From positions 806,001-870,000 of the forward strand of contig NZ_CP101458.1 in assembly GCF_024362525.1 (NCBI RefSeq): a stretch of DNA of 64,000 nt, read 5' to 3'. The translations under genes were made by a program, and so were the position numbers. Shown piece after piece: positions 2,785 through 11,402 of this stretch (position 1 is the first letter of the stretch; each line of letters starts with the position of its first letter). The notes under the pieces were generated by a model that was not told the origin of the DNA, made no database searches, and was given only the letters and a program-made list of their open reading frames with translations. Origin of the DNA: Natrononativus amylolyticus (GTDB lineage Archaea; Halobacteriota; Halobacteria; Halobacteriales; Natrialbaceae).

Positions 2785-2809
2785 GTCAGTATGTTAAGTG
2801 GGTAGACAC

Positions 2810-5800
2810 ATGCCTGATGACCCTCTCGACGCTGACTTTGCAAAGTCTCTTGACGGCTATTTGGAGCGAATACGACGTGCTAACAGTGAAGCGTCCCGCG
2901 GGCACCAGTTCCTATCATTCATCGGTGACACGTTCAGCACCCTTGACTCAGACCAGGCGCACAGGATGCTCCCCATGCTCGAAGAGCATGTTAAATTCAA
3001 GCAGGCGACCGTCGCGATTAGTGGCCGCATTGACGCTCGGCTCGGGAACGTTCTCGTCGAGTTCAAGACGAACACAGACAACTTCTCAGACGCGAAAGAG
3101 CAACTGAAGACGTATATTACGGCGATTTGGGCGGAACAGGGCCGCGACCAATCCTACTACCTAGTCGCGAGTGATGGAATTACATGCGAGGTCTACATCC
3201 CGGAGTTAGCGGAGGAGGACGAGGTGACCATCGAAAACACCGACCTCCGGCAAGTGGACGAAATCAACCTCAATAGTGACGACACGGACAAGGTGTTCAC
3301 CAAACTTGACAGATATCTATTATTCAGTGAAGACCTGCTTCCTACCGCGGAGAACATAGTACTTGATTTCGGACCTACATCACCAATTTGCCGCGAGGGT
3401 CTGGAACTTCTCCACGACGAGTGGGAGTCCATTGAAGTAAATAACGTAGAAATCCTGTTCGACGAGTGGCAGCGGTATCTCGAAATTGTACACGGTTCAG
3501 GGAGTCACTCTGAGGCCCTGTTCATCCGCCACACCTATCTCAGTATCTTAGCTAAGCTGATGGCCTACGTCCAGTACTCTGGTGGAGTACTCCCGGATGA
3601 CGATGAGGTCTCAGATGTAATCACCGGAGAAGTCTTCGAGCGACTCGGAATCCAGAACTTCATCGAGGAAGACTTCTTCAGTTGGGTAAGTCGAGAATCG
3701 GCAGACGGTGCTGACAAACGCATTGTCGAACATCTGCTCGCCCGACTCCATGACTACGACCTCTCTGAAATCGAGGAAGACGTCCTTAAAACACTGTATC
3801 AGGACTTGGTCACGCCAGAGGAACGGCACAGCTTGGGGGAATACTATACTCCTGATTGGCTTGCCGAGGAGATGGTCAATGAGGAATTAGAGGATAACCC
3901 AGAAGCCTCAGTGCTTGACCCTACTTGTGGGAGCGGAACTTTCCTATTCAGCGCGATACGTTACAAAATGGAACACGTCGATAAAGATGGACAGGAGCTG
4001 ATAGACCATCTCTTCAACAACGTGGTCGGCATCGACGTGCACCCACTCGCCATCATCACCGCCCGAGTGAACGTCCTTCTGGCACTTGGAGACTTGCTCC
4101 GTGAAGAGCGTACAGAGTCAGTATCCGTTCCGGTGTACCTCTCAAACACAATCATGCCGCCGGAACACGAGCGCACTACGGCGGCCGTCGACGTGTACCG
4201 ATTCAACTCTGACGAAGGGGTATTCGAGCTACCTATCACCGTGACTGACGACGAAGAGGTACTGAACGAACTACTAGATAGCGTCAAGTCGTACCTCGAT
4301 AGCAACGACGAGATTGATGAGGAGAACCTACACGCGTATCTCGAAAACCAAGTTGGGGAGAAATATGAGGGTCTTGCTGACGACGAGCGCGGAGTCATTT
4401 ACCGCAACGTCGTCGAACGAATCAGTGACCTCCGCGACCGAGGTCGTGACACTATCTGGACTTTCATCTTGAAGAACGTCTACAAGCCAATCTACTTCGA
4501 GGAGAAAAAATTCGACCGAGTAATTGGAAATCCTCCGTGGCTCTCCTATCGATACATCAGCCGCGAAGAGTACAAGGACCATGTCAAGCACTTAGTGACA
4601 GAAGAGTATGGCTTGCTGGATTCCAGTGCCACTCAGAACCTCACGCACATGGAGTTGGCTTCTCTCGTCCTAGCTTACTCCTTCGACCATTATCTCGAAG
4701 ATGGTGGTCGGCTATCCTTCGTGATGCCACGAGGGATTTTCAGTGGAACTCATCACAAGAATTTCCGGTCATTCGACTTCAGCACAGTCGGTCACTGGAC
4801 GTACCTTTGGGACCTCGAATACGTGAAACCGCTGTTCAACAACGTGTCCTGCGTCATAGCGGCTGAGAAAAGTGAGGGCGAATCGTACCCGCTAGATGGG
4901 CGTATATACCAAGGGTCTCTACCCAAGGCAAACGCATCGTTAGAGGCTGCTCGGGAAGAGTTAGACGTTAGGGATATAACGTACTATCTTAACGAGTTCT
5001 CCGAGTCCAGCGTCATCATGGACCGGGAGCTTGACCCGGACGTAATCAAGTCCGCGAGTCCATACAAGGACAAGATAGAAAACGGTGGTAATGCGTACCC
5101 GCGCACACTATGGTTCGTCGATTTCGACGAACCACCTGCACTCGGTATCAATCCGCAGGAACCACCCGTTCACTCGTCTGACCGGGCGGTCTCGCAGGCA
5201 GGAGACCGCTGGGAGGATGCCTATATTGAGGGTCAAATTGAGAACGAGTTCCTTTGGAATATCGTCACGGGGAGTGAAATAGCGTATTTCGGGACTCTCG
5301 AATTCCCCACGGCCGTTCTCCCCCTCGAAATATCGGGGAGCAGCTACCATCTCCACGACGAGGAGAGTGCAAGGAGAAATGGTCATCAGCATCTAGCTAA
5401 CTGGATTTCTGAGGCTGACAGGCTATTCGAGCAGTACAAACCAGAGGACCGAACGGAAGACGTGCTTGAATGGCTTAACTGGCATCAAAAGTTCACGGAC
5501 AAACAAGACCCGAACGCGGAATACCGGGTTCTCCAGAATAGTAGCGGAGACTACGTCTGCGGGGCCGTTGTCAAAACATCCGATTTGACCGATTTGAAGG
5601 TCAATGGTACTATCATCGAACTCCAGCGCAACAGCAACGATGAAATCCCGCTGATTGTCGACCACAAGTGCTATCACTACGAGACAGATAGCTACGAAGA
5701 AGCGTACTATCTCTCCGGCTTCCTGAACGCACCAGCGATACGGGATCTAATCTACGACATGATAAACCGTGGTCAATTCGCCGGACGAGATATCCATAAA

Positions 5801-6058
5801 CGGGTTTGGGAAGTTTATATTCCAGAGTTCAATCCGAATGACCCATTGCATCGAGAAATCTCTGAGACCGCTCTCGAAGCAACGGAACAAGCGGCTGAAC
5901 TCATACCTGAGCTTGCTGAGGAATATTCTCTTGGTTGGGTTAGGAGAAAACAGCGTGAAGAGATGGAACCAATTCGATCTGAATTATCCGAGCTCTGTGT
6001 TGAGGCGTTGGAGGAGGTTAATGCAAAGCAGTCCTCTCTGGCCGACCATACGAATTAG
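2810..6058 (+). CDS. Single-chain type IIG-like restriction endonuclease / adenine-specific DNA methyltransferase
   Basis: The 1,082-residue protein combines cleavage and methylation. The N-terminal domain has a PD-(D/E)xK nuclease signature: IDARLG...EFK, with D75, E84 and K86. A helical linker follows, then a class I methyltransferase with the SAM-binding motif DPTCGSGTFL (starting about residue 370) and the catalytic NPPW motif of N6-adenine methylases (about 574-577). The C-terminal 450 residues should hold the target-recognition domain. This is the Eco57I/type IIG arrangement, in which no separate R or S subunit is needed. The GTG at 2798 would add four residues, but TATA spacing favours ATG 2810. 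The target sequence cannot be read from the protein. Its place next to an extra TBP and a nitrilase-SMC operon suggests a defence island. Confidence 0.85.
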   Translation: MPDDPLDADFAKSLDGYLERIRRANSEASRGHQFLSFIGDTFSTLDSDQAHRMLPMLEEHVKFKQATVAISGRIDARLGNVLVEFKTNTDNFSDAKEQLKTYITAIWAEQGRDQSYYLVASDGITCEVYIPELAEEDEVTIENTDLRQVDEINLNSDDTDKVFTKLDRYLLFSEDLLPTAENIVLDFGPTSPICREGLELLHDEWESIEVNNVEILFDEWQRYLEIVHGSGSHSEALFIRHTYLSILAKLMAYVQYSGGVLPDDDEVSDVITGEVFERLGIQNFIEEDFFSWVSRESADGADKRIVEHLLARLHDYDLSEIEEDVLKTLYQDLVTPEERHSLGEYYTPDWLAEEMVNEELEDNPEASVLDPTCGSGTFLFSAIRYKMEHVDKDGQELIDHLFNNVVGIDVHPLAIITARVNVLLALGDLLREERTESVSVPVYLSNTIMPPEHERTTAAVDVYRFNSDEGVFELPITVTDDEEVLNELLDSVKSYLDSNDEIDEENLHAYLENQVGEKYEGLADDERGVIYRNVVERISDLRDRGRDTIWTFILKNVYKPIYFEEKKFDRVIGNPPWLSYRYISREEYKDHVKHLVTEEYGLLDSSATQNLTHMELASLVLAYSFDHYLEDGGRLSFVMPRGIFSGTHHKNFRSFDFSTVGHWTYLWDLEYVKPLFNNVSCVIAAEKSEGESYPLDGRIYQGSLPKANASLEAAREELDVRDITYYLNEFSESSVIMDRELDPDVIKSASPYKDKIENGGNAYPRTLWFVDFDEPPALGINPQEPPVHSSDRAVSQAGDRWEDAYIEGQIENEFLWNIVTGSEIAYFGTLEFPTAVLPLEISGSSYHLHDEESARRNGHQHLANWISEADRLFEQYKPEDRTEDVLEWLNWHQKFTDKQDPNAEYRVLQNSSGDYVCGAVVKTSDLTDLKVNGTIIELQRNSNDEIPLIVDHKCYHYETDSYEEAYYLSGFLNAPAIRDLIYDMINRGQFAGRDIHKRVWEVYIPEFNPNDPLHREISETALEATEQAAELIPELAEEYSLGWVRRKQREEMEPIRSELSELCVEALEEVNAKQSSLADHTN

Positions 6059-6182
6059 TTGAATTGTTGGACCTCGGTACTCCTGTTGTGTACTGTGGTC
6101 TGCGTTCTATTGTTCGGCTTCGACACCCATAGGGGAATCCGTCAATTAATGTCAGAATCACCAGTAGGCATTACTCGTATCG

Positions 6183-6227
6183 GCCCTGTTGAAACCCATA
6201 ATCGGTGATAGGTTTCAGGAGTAGGGC
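6183..6227. repeat. Hairpin repeat, left copy
   Basis: An inner stem TGAAACC (6190-6196) / GGTTTCA (6211-6217) is enclosed by an outer stem GCCCT (6183-6187) / AGGGC (6223-6227). A related sequence in the same orientation lies at 11461-11496. In a 36-base alignment 27 positions agree, and the inner-stem change A-T to G-C is compensated on both arms. The two copies bracket the nitrilase-SMC operon. Confidence 0.5.
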
Positions 6228-6241
6228 TGAATACAAAGCGC

Positions 6242-6384
6242 GGGCCGTGTTTAGACGCGTTCGAAAGACGATTCTAATGGGTATTCCGGCCGAGTAGATT
6301 CAACTAGCGAGTCTCTCTCTGACCAAGTTTGATATCGTGATACTACACGCTGTGACCAATTTTCCCGGCGTCTAAACAAGGCCC
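6242..6384. mobile_element. MITE-like element, 143 bp, with target duplication
   Basis: The left end GGGCCGTGTTTAGACGC (6242-6258) and the reverse complement of the right end (6368-6384) agree at 16 of 17 positions. Immediately outside, AAAGCGC occurs on both sides (6235-6241 and 6385-6391), a 7-base direct repeat that fits a target-site duplication (8 bases if the boundary is shifted by one). The interior has no transposase, so a relative elsewhere must mobilise it. The IS family is not identified. Confidence 0.65.
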
Positions 6385-6657
6385 AAAGCGCGTATCGGTC
6401 ACTTAGCTTTCCCGATCTCAGAGGTTCATACAGAGAACGTCTCTTAGAGTGCTGTGGCCTAACCGTTCACGATTTGATAGAAGCGACGTACTGATAGAAG
6501 GTGCTTGTTTAGACGTGTGATATCGCTCATTTCCGGTTCTGAGGGATTGTATCCCGTTTCTGAACGGCTTTTAGGACGAGTTCTCTGAACTAACCAAACC
6601 ACGTTCTATTCGGCAACATCTCGTCGAACCGACTCTTCAGCGTGAAGAAGATCGAAT

Positions 6658-6670
6658 CATATAGATTAAA
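6658..6670 (+). promoter_or_regulatory. TATA-like element of the nitrilase-SMC operon
   Basis: CATATAGATTAAA ends 29 bases before the ATG at 6700 and only 11 bases before the alternative GTG at 6682. The spacing favours initiation at 6700. Confidence 0.4.
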
Positions 6671-6699
6671 ATGAACGACACGTGTTTAATGCTCAAGAG

Positions 6700-8412
6700 A
6701 TGTCCAGTCGATGGCGACTCCGGTCAGCTGATCTAGAATTAGGCGGACTCATTCCGGACACGTACTCGATATTTGACCCAGGATCTAACCCTAAGGATAT
6801 CATAGTTTGGCAGCCAAGTGGCGCGATTGACAATATCACCACTCTACCGACGCCCGAACCTATACTTCAGGCGAAGGCCGAGCAGTTCCTCCACCGAGCA
6901 GTCGAAAGCGAGTGCTATCTCGGGGCAGCCCCCGAATGGGCCTACAATATCGAGTGGATCACAGACCATACGGACTATCTTTTTGCAGCGGACAGTCCGT
7001 TGTTCGTGTTGGGGTGTGCGCCCATTCGGGACAGCACCAGACGAGAAGTTATTGCGACCTTGGAAGACGAGTACAATTACGATGTCTACGAGGCTACTGA
7101 TGTAGACTGCAGCGCTGATGAATTCCTGACGCCGACTATTATCCCAATACAGGCGGCAGCTCGGCAGGACAGCGACGACGGTGCGGTGCTTGTCCAATAT
7201 AAGAACCATTCCATGAGCGATGGAGTGCTTGCGAACGAGCAGGCGAACTTAGCCACGGGAGACCGCATTTGGAAGATTGACCCACGCCATGCCCCCACTG
7301 TCATTAGCTGGACCTGCTCGGATATTATGGACGGGGAACTGCGTGAGGACGTCGAAAGCTTCGCACGAGAGTTCGATACCGTCGTGGTTCACGTCCAGTG
7401 CAACCCCGGGCCGTTTAATGAAACATGGGTCGATTTCCGGAATCAGATATTCGATGGATCGGACAACAAAGTTACATACGTTTGTGCTAACTGGGCGAGT
7501 GATACATTCGATACTGAAGACGAAGAGTTCGGTTACTCCGGGGTCTATACGAAGGCCAAACGTCGATCTCCACTGGATCGGTACGATACGACGTACGAGA
7601 ATGGTGGCTTGGTTGGAACGAAACCGAGCTATCGATGTGACTATGTTTGGCTAATGCCAAATGACGTTGTCAGCCGTATACAGTTCAAGCGGCCAAATCC
7701 AGGGACGACTGGGGCTGGGGCACCTTCCTTCTCCTTACCACGTGTGTATCAGACATGGACCTGGGATTCAAGCGCAAGTACGTATCTTGAGGATTGTCCG
7801 GGTGTGCCTGAGTGTAACGATACAACGTATAATTCATGGCTCTCGCAACTCCCTGATTCGCACCTTGCACGAGAACTGATGGCAGCGATCGCGTTAGGGA
7901 AAATCGACTTCGATCGGCTTCCGAAAGAAGAGTTGGTGCCAGACATGGCATTCGACTGGGCAGCACTGGAAACTCTTACGGATGCGGACGGTGCCGAACG
8001 GCTTGGGCATGTGCTTTCGTCGCACCGTAGACGCACCGACCCATCACCAAGTGAAGAAATGGAGAGATTGGTTCATATGCTCGACAAAGCAGCTGAACTA
8101 AACATATGCATGGACGACGAATTCAGTCTCAAAGACGTCCCGATGAACGCCGAATACGAGGATAAGGATATTAAGGTGTGTCTGACTGTGCTGGACAGAT
8201 GGGGGGACGTCAGTGAACAGAAGGGTGCGACGCGGCTCAGAAACTGGGTCAAAAGACGGACCGACATGCGGTTTAAGCCTCTTGTCGTCACAATGGACCG
8301 GAGCTCGGGGTTAGTCCTTAAGACACTTGAGGGCCACGAGGACGTCTCCCAGATGAATCGTGACCCTGAACGGGTCAGCAATCCGGGTGGATTAGTGAGG
8401 GTTGACCGATGA
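6700..8412 (+). CDS. Nitrilase-superfamily (carbon-nitrogen hydrolase) protein, candidate defence effector
   Basis: The protein has 570 residues from ATG 6700 (576 from the in-frame GTG 6682; numbering here is from the GTG). The Glu-Lys-Cys triad of the nitrilase fold can be placed: E85 in GAAPEWAY, K174 in VQYKNHS and C212 in SWTCSDIMDGEL. The spacings (89 and 38) are near the family's usual 70-90 and 35-45. The strand after the cysteine (FDTVVVHVQCNPGP) fits the conserved region that follows it in nitrilases. The C-terminal 250 residues have no recognisable domain and may contact the partner. Its TGA overlaps the ATG of the next gene (ATGA at 8409-8412), so the two are translationally coupled. 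Family members hydrolyse nitriles or amides or transfer acyl groups; the substrate here is unknown. A nitrilase domain is also fused to a reverse transcriptase in DRT-type phage defence, so a defence effector role is plausible. Confidence 0.7.
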   Translation: MSSRWRLRSADLELGGLIPDTYSIFDPGSNPKDIIVWQPSGAIDNITTLPTPEPILQAKAEQFLHRAVESECYLGAAPEWAYNIEWITDHTDYLFAADSPLFVLGCAPIRDSTRREVIATLEDEYNYDVYEATDVDCSADEFLTPTIIPIQAAARQDSDDGAVLVQYKNHSMSDGVLANEQANLATGDRIWKIDPRHAPTVISWTCSDIMDGELREDVESFAREFDTVVVHVQCNPGPFNETWVDFRNQIFDGSDNKVTYVCANWASDTFDTEDEEFGYSGVYTKAKRRSPLDRYDTTYENGGLVGTKPSYRCDYVWLMPNDVVSRIQFKRPNPGTTGAGAPSFSLPRVYQTWTWDSSASTYLEDCPGVPECNDTTYNSWLSQLPDSHLARELMAAIALGKIDFDRLPKEELVPDMAFDWAALETLTDADGAERLGHVLSSHRRRTDPSPSEEMERLVHMLDKAAELNICMDDEFSLKDVPMNAEYEDKDIKVCLTVLDRWGDVSEQKGATRLRNWVKRRTDMRFKPLVVTMDRSSGLVLKTLEGHEDVSQMNRDPERVSNPGGLVRVDR

Positions 8413-11402
8413 CACTCGAAGAATATCTTCCAAAAGGGTTTGATGGGGACATCGAATCAGTTGAGGGAACTGTATCTCTATACGAGATAGAACATGATCG
8501 AAATACGTTCGGTGGGGAATTACTATTAGTTAGGCTTCTTGGAACAGAGTTCGACGCAGAGGAATTGCTCAAGGAGGATGTCAACAGGCTTGAGGTGAGA
8601 TTCTACGATAACAAGACACCAAACCAGTGGAATATTCGGCTTATCTGGGCGTATGAGGATGATGCTCCCCCTTCTCCAAATATCCGGGATGAACTGGAAA
8701 ACGACACTCGGTTCGCGATCCGGCGCTGTGTGCCCGTTGACAACCTAGCGGACTTCGTCGCACCCTTACAGACGAGTCGAGCCAAACTTGAGAACATCAC
8801 CAGCCACTTCGACCGCAGTGAACTAATTGAGAATATCATTGACCAGGATCTCGAATTCCTGTTCGATGATTTGAGTCGAGACGAGAAATTCGAGCGACTC
8901 AAAAACGGAACAGCCCGGAAAAAGCAAGAGACGAAGTCGGTTTCCCTGCCTGCTACGTCGGGTGATCCGCTAGATAGGTTCGTCGATTCGACTAACTTGG
9001 GTGAGTTCCGGCCAAATGCCAATTTAAACGAGGTAGATGTTGAACCGTTTACGCTCCTCTACGGGCGGAATGGGACCGGCAAAACAAGTCTGCTAGATGC
9101 TACAGCCTTCGGCTTAGTTGGTCAGATCCGCCATAATGAGAACAGAGCCGACGACTACGAGAACCTGAACGTAACACTCCAGGGAGACGCAAAGCCACTG
9201 CCGACGGATTCGGCGGCTGCCAATGATCGCGTGGCCAACTGGTTCGGGTTTCGACCACACGGGCCAGCCAACAAGCACATCGAATTTTATCGCGTTAACT
9301 ACCACGAGACAGGTGCTGCCACGCGGTTTATAGAAAACGACCCCAACATTGATATCGAGCAAACACTTCGACGGCTCCTGTTCGGTGAGGAGTTGGAAGA
9401 TGCGCGCAATGACAAAGAAAAACTCCGCCCACGGCTCACAAGGGAAATAGAGGAAACACAGGACCGAATCGAGGAACTCGAGAGCGACAAACGGGATATC
9501 CAAGAGATACAAGAGCGGGTTTCCGAGGTATTTTCCCATCTAAGAGTCGCTGCGGACGAGCTTTCGCCCGCGGCTAAGGCTGCCCTCTCGACCGAGCCGG
9601 ACGTGCCCGACTCGGACCAGGTACGCTCCCCTGACCCTGACGACCTGAAGCAGTGGTCGAGATGGAAACAGCGGTTTTCGGACTTACAAGACTGTCTCGA
9701 GGCATTGCAGGAATTGAGTGACGACACAGAGCCACCGGAAACGCCGAGTGATCTTCGGCGAGGGATACTTAAAGCCCAAGAGGATGTCGAAAGGTTCACT
9801 GCTGAAATTGAAGACATCAAAGAACTACAAGCCGAGCGTGCTCATCTGACCGATCTCAAAGACAATTTGAGCCAATCAACGCAAGGGTTTCCTGCCTCTG
9901 TCGGTCTTGTTGCCCTCATTCTGCGCTCACACGGGCTCAACACAGATGATATGACAATCTTACAAAAAGGTCTTGACGAGGCACTTGAATCCGATATGGA
10001 CCCTGTGAGGACCGGTTCAATCGACGAGTGGCGGGACGACGCCAGCAAGCACGTGACCCAGCGGTTGAAGGCGCTTCGAGATCAGAAAGCGAACATCGAG
10101 AAACTTGATGAACTGGACAAACAGCGTCGCGAGCTTCAGGCCCAAATCCGGAACAAGACCGAGGAGTACCTCTCGATAACTGACGATACGCACTATTGTC
10201 CTGCATGCTACACAGAACAGGACAGGGGTGCGATATTAAATCGAGAGAAACCGGAGCAGCTTCACGGCGATCCCTCAGAGGGTGTTCCAGACACCCTTCT
10301 CGACCGGATTGCAGCATTGGAGCGGGCCCAAAGCATCTTAGATAAGCCGCTCTGGGAGGACGTTGATTACGACGTCTCCGTGCGCTTCAGTGACACTGGC
10401 GGGATGGACGCCTTCCGAGATCTATGGCGTAGCTTCGGAGATGAGGCGAAAGCTCCGACCACAGTCCCTAGTGTGACCACTGCCACCGTGAACGCCTTCG
10501 CTACTGCACTCCGAGAAACTCCTGATGACTCTTCTGGTTCGCCCCCGGTTGAACAAGTCATTGAATCCCGAATCAAAGACTTGGAGACCTCAATATCCGA
10601 TTTGACGGCTGCTATTCCGGCAGTAGCTGGACCAGAGGCTGATGTGAAACAACTGGAAGAGCACTATCAACGTCTGACCGATGACATCAGTGCTAGCCAA
10701 GACATCTTGGAGGAGTATTGGCATGGTAATTCCCGACATCAGCGACTTGATGTCGAAAGCGATTACCGCGTCCTCAAGCGTGCACTGGCCGAAGTCGAAC
10801 GTAACCCCTCCGCATTAGAGGGACCCAGTCACTACGACGACCAACTTAGCGATATAGATTCCCAACTTTCGGAGTTGTGCGAGACAGTCGAAAACTGTCG
10901 GGACGGTGTCGAGCGTCTCGAAACCGCGTTTGAGGGGTCCGGCGGTGAAGAGGAACTCAAAAGTCTCGTCACTGATCACATGACTGTCATTTCGACGCTA
11001 TTCAAAGCGTTTCAGCGTCCCTACGAGTTCGAGCGGGTACGATACGAAGAGAATCGTGTCGTCGTTGAGCGGCGTGGTGAGGAAGGACTGGCACCAATAA
11101 CAGCCATGAGTTCTGGTCAACGGGCGGCACTGGCTTTGGCGATATTCGTTACGAACAACATCGCGCACAAACGAGCGCCAGCACTGATGATGCTAGACGA
11201 ACCGTTCGCGCATCTTGATGACATCAACACGGTGTCGTTTTTTAACTTGCTTATCGAGTTAGCGAGAACGGGTAAGCGGCAGATCCTTTTCGCGACCGCG
11301 AATGCGGATATCGCAGACTTGTTGCAGCGGAAGGTGGGCGAGTCCAAGGACTTCGCCAGGGTTGATATTCCAGTTACAAGCCCAACACACAACACGGAAT
11401 AA
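8409..11402 (+). CDS. SMC/Rad50-like ATPase with CxxC hook and novel N-terminal domain
   Basis: The protein has 997 residues. The ATPase parts are complete: Walker A GRNGTGKTS (from about residue 219), a long coiled coil broken by a zinc-hook CPAC (597-600), the ABC signature MSSGQRAALALAIF (from about 900) and Walker B ALMMLDEPFAHLDD (925-938). This resembles Rad50/SMC-type sensors in defence systems such as Lamassu LmuB. The first ~215 residues form an extra acidic domain not found in ordinary Rad50, where Walker A lies near residue 35. It is coupled to the nitrilase gene by an ATGA overlap. The host's normal Rad50 (22995-25664) is clearly different, so this is not a repair duplicate. The inferred role is to sense foreign DNA or DNA ends and control the hydrolase. 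Confidence 0.8.
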   Translation: MTLEEYLPKGFDGDIESVEGTVSLYEIEHDRNTFGGELLLVRLLGTEFDAEELLKEDVNRLEVRFYDNKTPNQWNIRLIWAYEDDAPPSPNIRDELENDTRFAIRRCVPVDNLADFVAPLQTSRAKLENITSHFDRSELIENIIDQDLEFLFDDLSRDEKFERLKNGTARKKQETKSVSLPATSGDPLDRFVDSTNLGEFRPNANLNEVDVEPFTLLYGRNGTGKTSLLDATAFGLVGQIRHNENRADDYENLNVTLQGDAKPLPTDSAAANDRVANWFGFRPHGPANKHIEFYRVNYHETGAATRFIENDPNIDIEQTLRRLLFGEELEDARNDKEKLRPRLTREIEETQDRIEELESDKRDIQEIQERVSEVFSHLRVAADELSPAAKAALSTEPDVPDSDQVRSPDPDDLKQWSRWKQRFSDLQDCLEALQELSDDTEPPETPSDLRRGILKAQEDVERFTAEIEDIKELQAERAHLTDLKDNLSQSTQGFPASVGLVALILRSHGLNTDDMTILQKGLDEALESDMDPVRTGSIDEWRDDASKHVTQRLKALRDQKANIEKLDELDKQRRELQAQIRNKTEEYLSITDDTHYCPACYTEQDRGAILNREKPEQLHGDPSEGVPDTLLDRIAALERAQSILDKPLWEDVDYDVSVRFSDTGGMDAFRDLWRSFGDEAKAPTTVPSVTTATVNAFATALRETPDDSSGSPPVEQVIESRIKDLETSISDLTAAIPAVAGPEADVKQLEEHYQRLTDDISASQDILEEYWHGNSRHQRLDVESDYRVLKRALAEVERNPSALEGPSHYDDQLSDIDSQLSELCETVENCRDGVERLETAFEGSGGEEELKSLVTDHMTVISTLFKAFQRPYEFERVRYEENRVVVERRGEEGLAPITAMSSGQRAALALAIFVTNNIAHKRAPALMMLDEPFAHLDDINTVSFFNLLIELARTGKRQILFATANADIADLLQRKVGESKDFARVDIPVTSPTHNTE

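Follow-up and report, generated by a model that had tools for sequence, protein, structure and literature searches.

A 143-bp MITE with IS5-type ends in Natrononativus amylolyticus and its haloarchaeal family of nearly constant length

Upstream of a two-gene operon of the haloarchaeon Natrononativus amylolyticus lies a short inverted repeat framed by two identical heptamers. Its presence raises the question of what kind of element it is, by what machinery it could have arrived, and whether it affects the genes beside it. We examined it within a window of 64 kb (the whole stretch of DNA analyzed, 64,000 nucleotides) and followed its relatives through other genomes.

The 143-bp element and its copies in the genome

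The features of the locus, in window coordinates, are as follows.

6182–6241, plus strand: left part of the dispersed repeat X, GGCCCTGTTGAAACCC...GGCTGAATAC, with the target
6235–6241, no strand: target duplication AAAGCGC, left copy
6242–6384, no strand: MITE of 143 bp, defined by its ends, duplication and dispersed copies
6242–6258, plus strand: left terminal inverted repeat, GGGCCGTGTTTAGACGC
6368–6384, minus strand: right terminal inverted repeat, GGGCCTTGTTTAGACGC as read on that strand
6385–6391, no strand: target duplication AAAGCGC, right copy
6392–6402, plus strand: right part of repeat X beyond the MITE, GTATCGGTCAC, extending at least this far
6500–6667, minus strand: autonomous IS5-type element in decayed form, of which one end and part of the transposase C-terminus remain

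The element occupies 143 bp at 6242–6384, and its 17-bp inverted ends, separated by 109 nt, are complementary at 16 of 17 positions. An exact 7-bp duplication, AAAGCGC, flanks it on both sides. The initial annotation had given these coordinates, the length, the inverted ends and the duplication, all of which we confirmed at the same positions; it had also held that no transposase lies inside, in agreement with the stops found in all six frames of the window copy. The heptamer AAAGCGC occurs four times on the plus strand of the whole window and once on the minus strand and, because it recurs in this way, the duplication taken alone is modest evidence of insertion. It becomes secure because further copies of the element and the target rule described below support insertion.

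The initial annotation had named the lack of any other copy as grounds against its reading. Instead, a search of the genome's own assembly (three contigs) revealed two further 143-bp copies, and more were found in other genomes. The second copy in the assembly is at C1:754808 (92%), and the third, a divergent unit at C2:765526, was recovered through its ends; no target duplication accompanies either of them. Longer pairs with related ends are present in the same genome at C1:752960 (246 bp) and C2:688586 (242 bp). The 246-bp unit (G000 C1:752960–753205; locus L013, 961–1206) adjoins another copy of X, apparently lying inside it, and is located about 1.6 kb from the 92% MITE copy.

Taken together, the unit is short, has terminal inverted repeats and an exact 7-bp target site duplication, lacks a transposase, is dispersed (three copies in its own genome, units in 39 of 391 genomes) and shares its ends with autonomous 936-bp elements that encode a transposase. 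The feature is thus a MITE, of a kind already known, whose apparent constraint on length was not expected. That its boundaries are well defined, as had been proposed, is supported by the ends, the duplication and the copies.

Partner elements, insertion sites and the neighboring operon

A scan of the genome collection for the end pattern returned at least 120 stretches, and 9 of the 120 matches listed were, judged by record title, not haloarchaeal. Eleven stretches came from the viral collection, where ends were paired by chance only. Within the loci we found 114 pairs of ends spaced 100–3500 bp apart, some of them chance or composite, and 92 of the 114 fell into the size classes 140–149, 221–249 and 931–984 bp. 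These 92 units comprise 5 from the element's own genome, 17 from loci retrieved with the window element as query and 70 from loci to which the end pattern alone had led. Exact 7-bp duplications were seen in 41 of them, exact 6-bp duplications in 12, and agreement at 6 of 7 positions in 10. An exact duplication of 7 or 6 bp therefore flanks 53 of the 92 units (0.576) vs. a fraction of 0.0039 with permuted right flanks. For the 70 units found by the end pattern alone, the corresponding numbers were 27 and 12 (39 in total), with 7 more agreeing at 6 of 7.

Paired ends were observed in four length classes: 42 units of 141–143 bp, a class of 225–246 bp, one of 936 bp and one of 969–982 bp. Most of the 936-bp and 969–982-bp units contain a transposase frame, broken in some cases, and many have exact 7-bp duplications. 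The check proposed in the initial annotation, a search for a full-length IS with such ends, thus led to 936-bp IS5-type elements. Two of the partner proteins, those tested, match the NF033579 IS5 model (E 2.9e-64 and 8.1e-61) and PF01609, which places the IS5-type DDE transposase on the partner, outside the 143-bp unit. Of 196 plasmid records 25 were listed, and these include several relatives with an IS5-family annotation and one that is labeled ISNma1. The ISNma1 copy of Natrialba magadii is 936 bp long with the ends GGGCCATGTTTAGACGC and CGGGCTTGTTTAGGCGC; the flanks of the copy examined agree at only 4 of 7 positions.

The sites of insertion follow a palindromic consensus. With both strands pooled, a procedure that builds symmetry into the logo, 56 distinct targets whose 7-bp duplications were exact or agreed at 6 of 7 positions gave TGCTGAATAC-N7-GTATTCAGCA. 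The tetramer ATAC stands directly before the duplication in 44% of the half-sites of these 56 targets vs. 0.27% overall in the same loci. As some loci had come from a query that contained the duplication, the analysis was repeated: 38 targets whose loci had been retrieved by the end pattern only yielded the same consensus, with ATAC in 25 of 76 half-sites. It was likewise present in 18 of 44 half-sites of 22 further units from a search of the class, while in 13 targets with 6-bp duplications the motif was not clearly visible. A palindromic target, sometimes within other repeats, provides a concrete rule for insertion sites.

In the window, the target belongs to repeat X. The flank joined without the MITE matches in 84 of 125 genomes of the host family, its own included (E ≤ 0.01), and many of the X matches listed run unbroken across the junction, for example over 25 of 25 bases in genome G085. 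Such unbroken matches represent X without an insert and not the orthologous locus, for which no empty form was found. A profile built from 19 copies of X without insert exceeded 15 bits in 9 of the 51 joined flanks whose loci the end pattern alone had retrieved. It did so in 46 of 1400 random windows, which came from loci selected in part for X, and in 0 of 1380 shuffles. Therefore, X is a favored but minority address, and the palindrome the wider rule. The same threshold was passed by 14 of the 17 flanks whose loci had been retrieved by a query of the window element plus its duplication. The best score, 72.2 bits, was that of the window flank, as expected for a profile made from sequences that match this flank. 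Ends resembling those of X, such as GGCTCTGTTGAAAYCCT, also bound a transposase-like frame in another locus (L094).

The ends, the duplication, the other copies, the full-length elements with transposase, the target preference and the uninterrupted copies of X were all directly observed. We consider it very probable (roughly 93%) that the unit is a non-autonomous DNA transposon, a MITE, whose ends are those of a haloarchaeal IS5-family group including ISNma1, and that it is mobilized in trans. An IS5-type DDE transposase supplied in trans would bind the 17-bp ends, move the 143-bp unit and insert it where the center of a palindromic target has been cut with a 7-bp stagger; gap repair would then produce the 7-bp duplication. 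In the present case the insertion site lay inside the dispersed repeat X. We infer mobilization by such a transposase and this order of events. As to function, the best reading is that of a parasite of an IS5-type transposase with target preference.

MITE-bearing and transposase-bearing genomes overlap weakly. In the genome of N. amylolyticus no match to the query transposase was obtained at E ≤ 1e-90; the best-scoring match is 45% identical, and no end with ≤4 mismatches was found in 3.5 kb around it. Over the 391 genomes, a transposase was detected in 12 of 39 MITE-bearing genomes vs. 55 of 352 others (Fisher two-sided p = 0.024), a result that depends on one transposase query and one cut-off. 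The association is weak, because 27 of the 39 MITE-bearing genomes, that of N. amylolyticus included, have no transposase at the cut-off. In its own genome the 143-bp unit looks orphaned, and the nearest trace of a partner is found beside it, at 6500–6667. There, an end (GGTGCTTGTTTAGACGT, 6500–6516) with 3 mismatches to the consensus is followed by a minus-strand transposase fragment (6563–6667, one stop) that shares 53–63% identity with the C-terminal part of four such transposases. This stretch is a decayed partner element lying next to the MITE. It runs into the promoter-like motif of the downstream operon.

That the MITE alters expression of the downstream two-gene operon, by affecting its promoter as the initial annotation had suggested, is unlikely. 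The element does sit in the intergenic region between a type IIG-like gene and the operon, but the listed start of the downstream gene (6682) is 298 bp from the MITE, and a promoter-like 11-mer, TAGATTAAAAT, is located at 6662–6672, about 280 bp away, with the IS remnant in between. In genome G014 the 11-mer recurs at a nearly equal distance from the aligned homologous start (38 and 39 bp; one homologue compared), and the 1500 bp upstream of that homologue contain no end with ≤4 mismatches. The proposed effect on the promoter is therefore not supported, given a promoter-like motif at this distance from the MITE that is shared with the one homologue.

The downstream gene is present in 6 of 125 genomes of the family, including its own. 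The label of nitrilase that it had received could not be confirmed: its 576-aa product (6682–8412) has no Pfam match at E 0.001, and no PADLOC match either. The SMC-like ATPase encoded at 8409–11402 of the window has its best PADLOC match in LmuB of Lamassu (E 4.4e-33). It is possible that these two genes constitute a two-gene defense system beside the type IIG-like gene (2798–6058).

Length, spread and divergence of the family

MITEs are usually regarded as transient products, formed anew in each lineage. Among the 43 pairs of 100–220 bp in the first set, 42 measured 141–143 bp, and the remaining one, probably a chance pair, 149 bp. The 42 units formed 21 clusters at 80% interior identity. 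With the ends excluded, the 21 representatives made up a single homology component with no conflict of orientation, and 108 of the 210 pairs among them scored above the null mean + 5 sd vs. 0 of 600 nulls. Their alignment has 143 columns, and in its 109 interior columns a pair differs on average by 55 substitutions and 0.67 gap columns; as they come from one size class, large net gaps were excluded by choice.

Since the representatives were chosen by size class, the evidence on length proper is a census of 391 genomes of the class, an even sample of a larger group. A unit was counted when an exact 10-base end core was present on both sides and the total was 128–158 bp, so that intact cores only were scored and decayed units missed. 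Units were found in 39 of 391 genomes and 23 of 86 genera, 82 units altogether. Among the 61 of these 82 that were listed, 41 measured 143 bp, 16 measured 142 bp, 3 measured 141 bp and one 133 bp. The same search at 159–189 bp found units in 0 of 391 genomes, and at 97–127 bp in 1 of 391. A single genome, G211, holds 31 of the 82 units (10 of them among the 61 listed); the next highest number in the 391 genomes is 5. The 133-bp form (locus L222; G273 C3:230087–230207), the only departure from 141–143 bp among the units listed, has an exact 7-bp duplication; hence the length constraint, if real, is not absolute.

For the interiors we used a set of 32 units, 30 from the search of the class (8 identical to units of the first set) and 2 from the genome of N. 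amylolyticus, and all 32 match the family profile. Interior identity was 0.584 within a host family, 0.585 between families and 0.622 within a genus. Identity is thus independent of host family, and these interiors therefore suggest that the 143-bp family has spread horizontally among its hosts. More tentatively, and with less than even confidence, we propose that all members descend from one old lineage that has spread horizontally and is kept at its length by selection: the spacing of the ends or the interior may be needed for transposition, such that substitutions are tolerated and indels are not. We do not claim a simple helical phasing of the 143, 243/244 and 936 bp classes, as these are about 100 and 793 bp apart, and neither interval is a whole number of turns at 10.5 bp. 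One length kept in 23 of 86 sampled genera, with an interior of about half identity, would offer a natural experiment on the minimal needs of a very short transposon.

The family is non-coding. Among the 21 representatives each frame is open in at most 4, and column entropy hardly differs between the three positions modulo 3 (1.26, 1.28 and 1.19), so a coding role was rejected.

The interior could also be leftover transposon sequence, with the MITE being a recent internal-deletion derivative of the 936-bp element. Both have the same kind of ends and the same duplication length, and in two of four permutation tests (p 0.024 and 0.042) the left subterminal columns weakly match those of IS ends. 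The right subterminal columns, however, do not (p 0.35 and 0.82), and the profile of the MITE interior scored no higher than 3.4 bits in any of 49 larger elements with these ends, in which no homologous interior was thus found. For these two reasons such a derivation is not supported, and we rate it as improbable, marginally more so than an effect on the operon. The still weaker notion that the inverted repeat is a transcription terminator, a regulatory hairpin or a structured RNA rather than a mobile element can be set aside as highly improbable: the single strand of the MITE folds better than shuffles (z −3.3), but a terminal stem of 14 pairs, none changed on both sides, is all that the alignment fold keeps, no Rfam match up to E 0.1 was obtained in 6100–6700, which together led us to reject a structured RNA, a simple consensus scan found no terminator-like site in 6050–6720, and the target duplication and dispersed copies need mobility.

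Comparison with known elements

In the literature searched, mostly at title level, no publication was recognized as describing the 143-bp family; in the available text of PMC10969869, the MITEs of Haloquadratum and Halobacterium are named without sequences. Several known systems resemble the non-autonomous transposon described here. In the available account of Haloquadratum walsbyi MITEs (Dyall-Smith et al., 2011; PMC3119063), 4 of 5 families are non-coding and shorter than 500 bp, ends are shared with transposons, target duplications are frequent, and 30 of 31 copies are inserted in other mobile elements. The present MITE, compared by description only, is likewise non-coding, has transposon ends and a duplication and is nested, and its nesting in X fits this published pattern of MITEs within other mobile elements. 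A 143-bp copy is present in H. walsbyi J07HQW2 (locus L097). Two further types of Haloquadratum element differ as they are defined in the same text (PMC3119063): PATEs are without terminal inverted repeats and target duplication, whereas the MITE has both, and SMRs have ends unrelated to transposons and no target duplication, whereas the ends of the MITE match a transposon and a duplication is present. The near-terminal palindrome of X recalls PATEs.

The Halobacterium MITEs and ISH2 treated in the available text of PMC10264941 are transposase-free like the present element, and ISH2 is said there to be mobilized in trans by the ISH8 transposase. They differ in size, with about 531 bp and ISH8-type ends for ISH2 and 411–413 bp for MITEHsal2 vs. 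143 bp here. As to the choice of target, IS elements that insert into REP palindromes of bacteria (Tobes and Pareja, 2006; PMC1525189, as far as its available text describes them) resemble the MITE group in that their transposases choose repeated palindromes. Those are bacterial REPs and other elements, whereas the palindrome of the MITE group is often found in archaeal repeats and has its 7-bp center duplicated. ISNma1, an IS5-family element of N. magadii, has ends of the same GGGCC-TGTTTAGACGC type as the MITE and differs from it in being 936 bp long with a transposase, and the 936-bp elements related to ISNma1 share with the MITE 7-bp duplications in the same kind of target.
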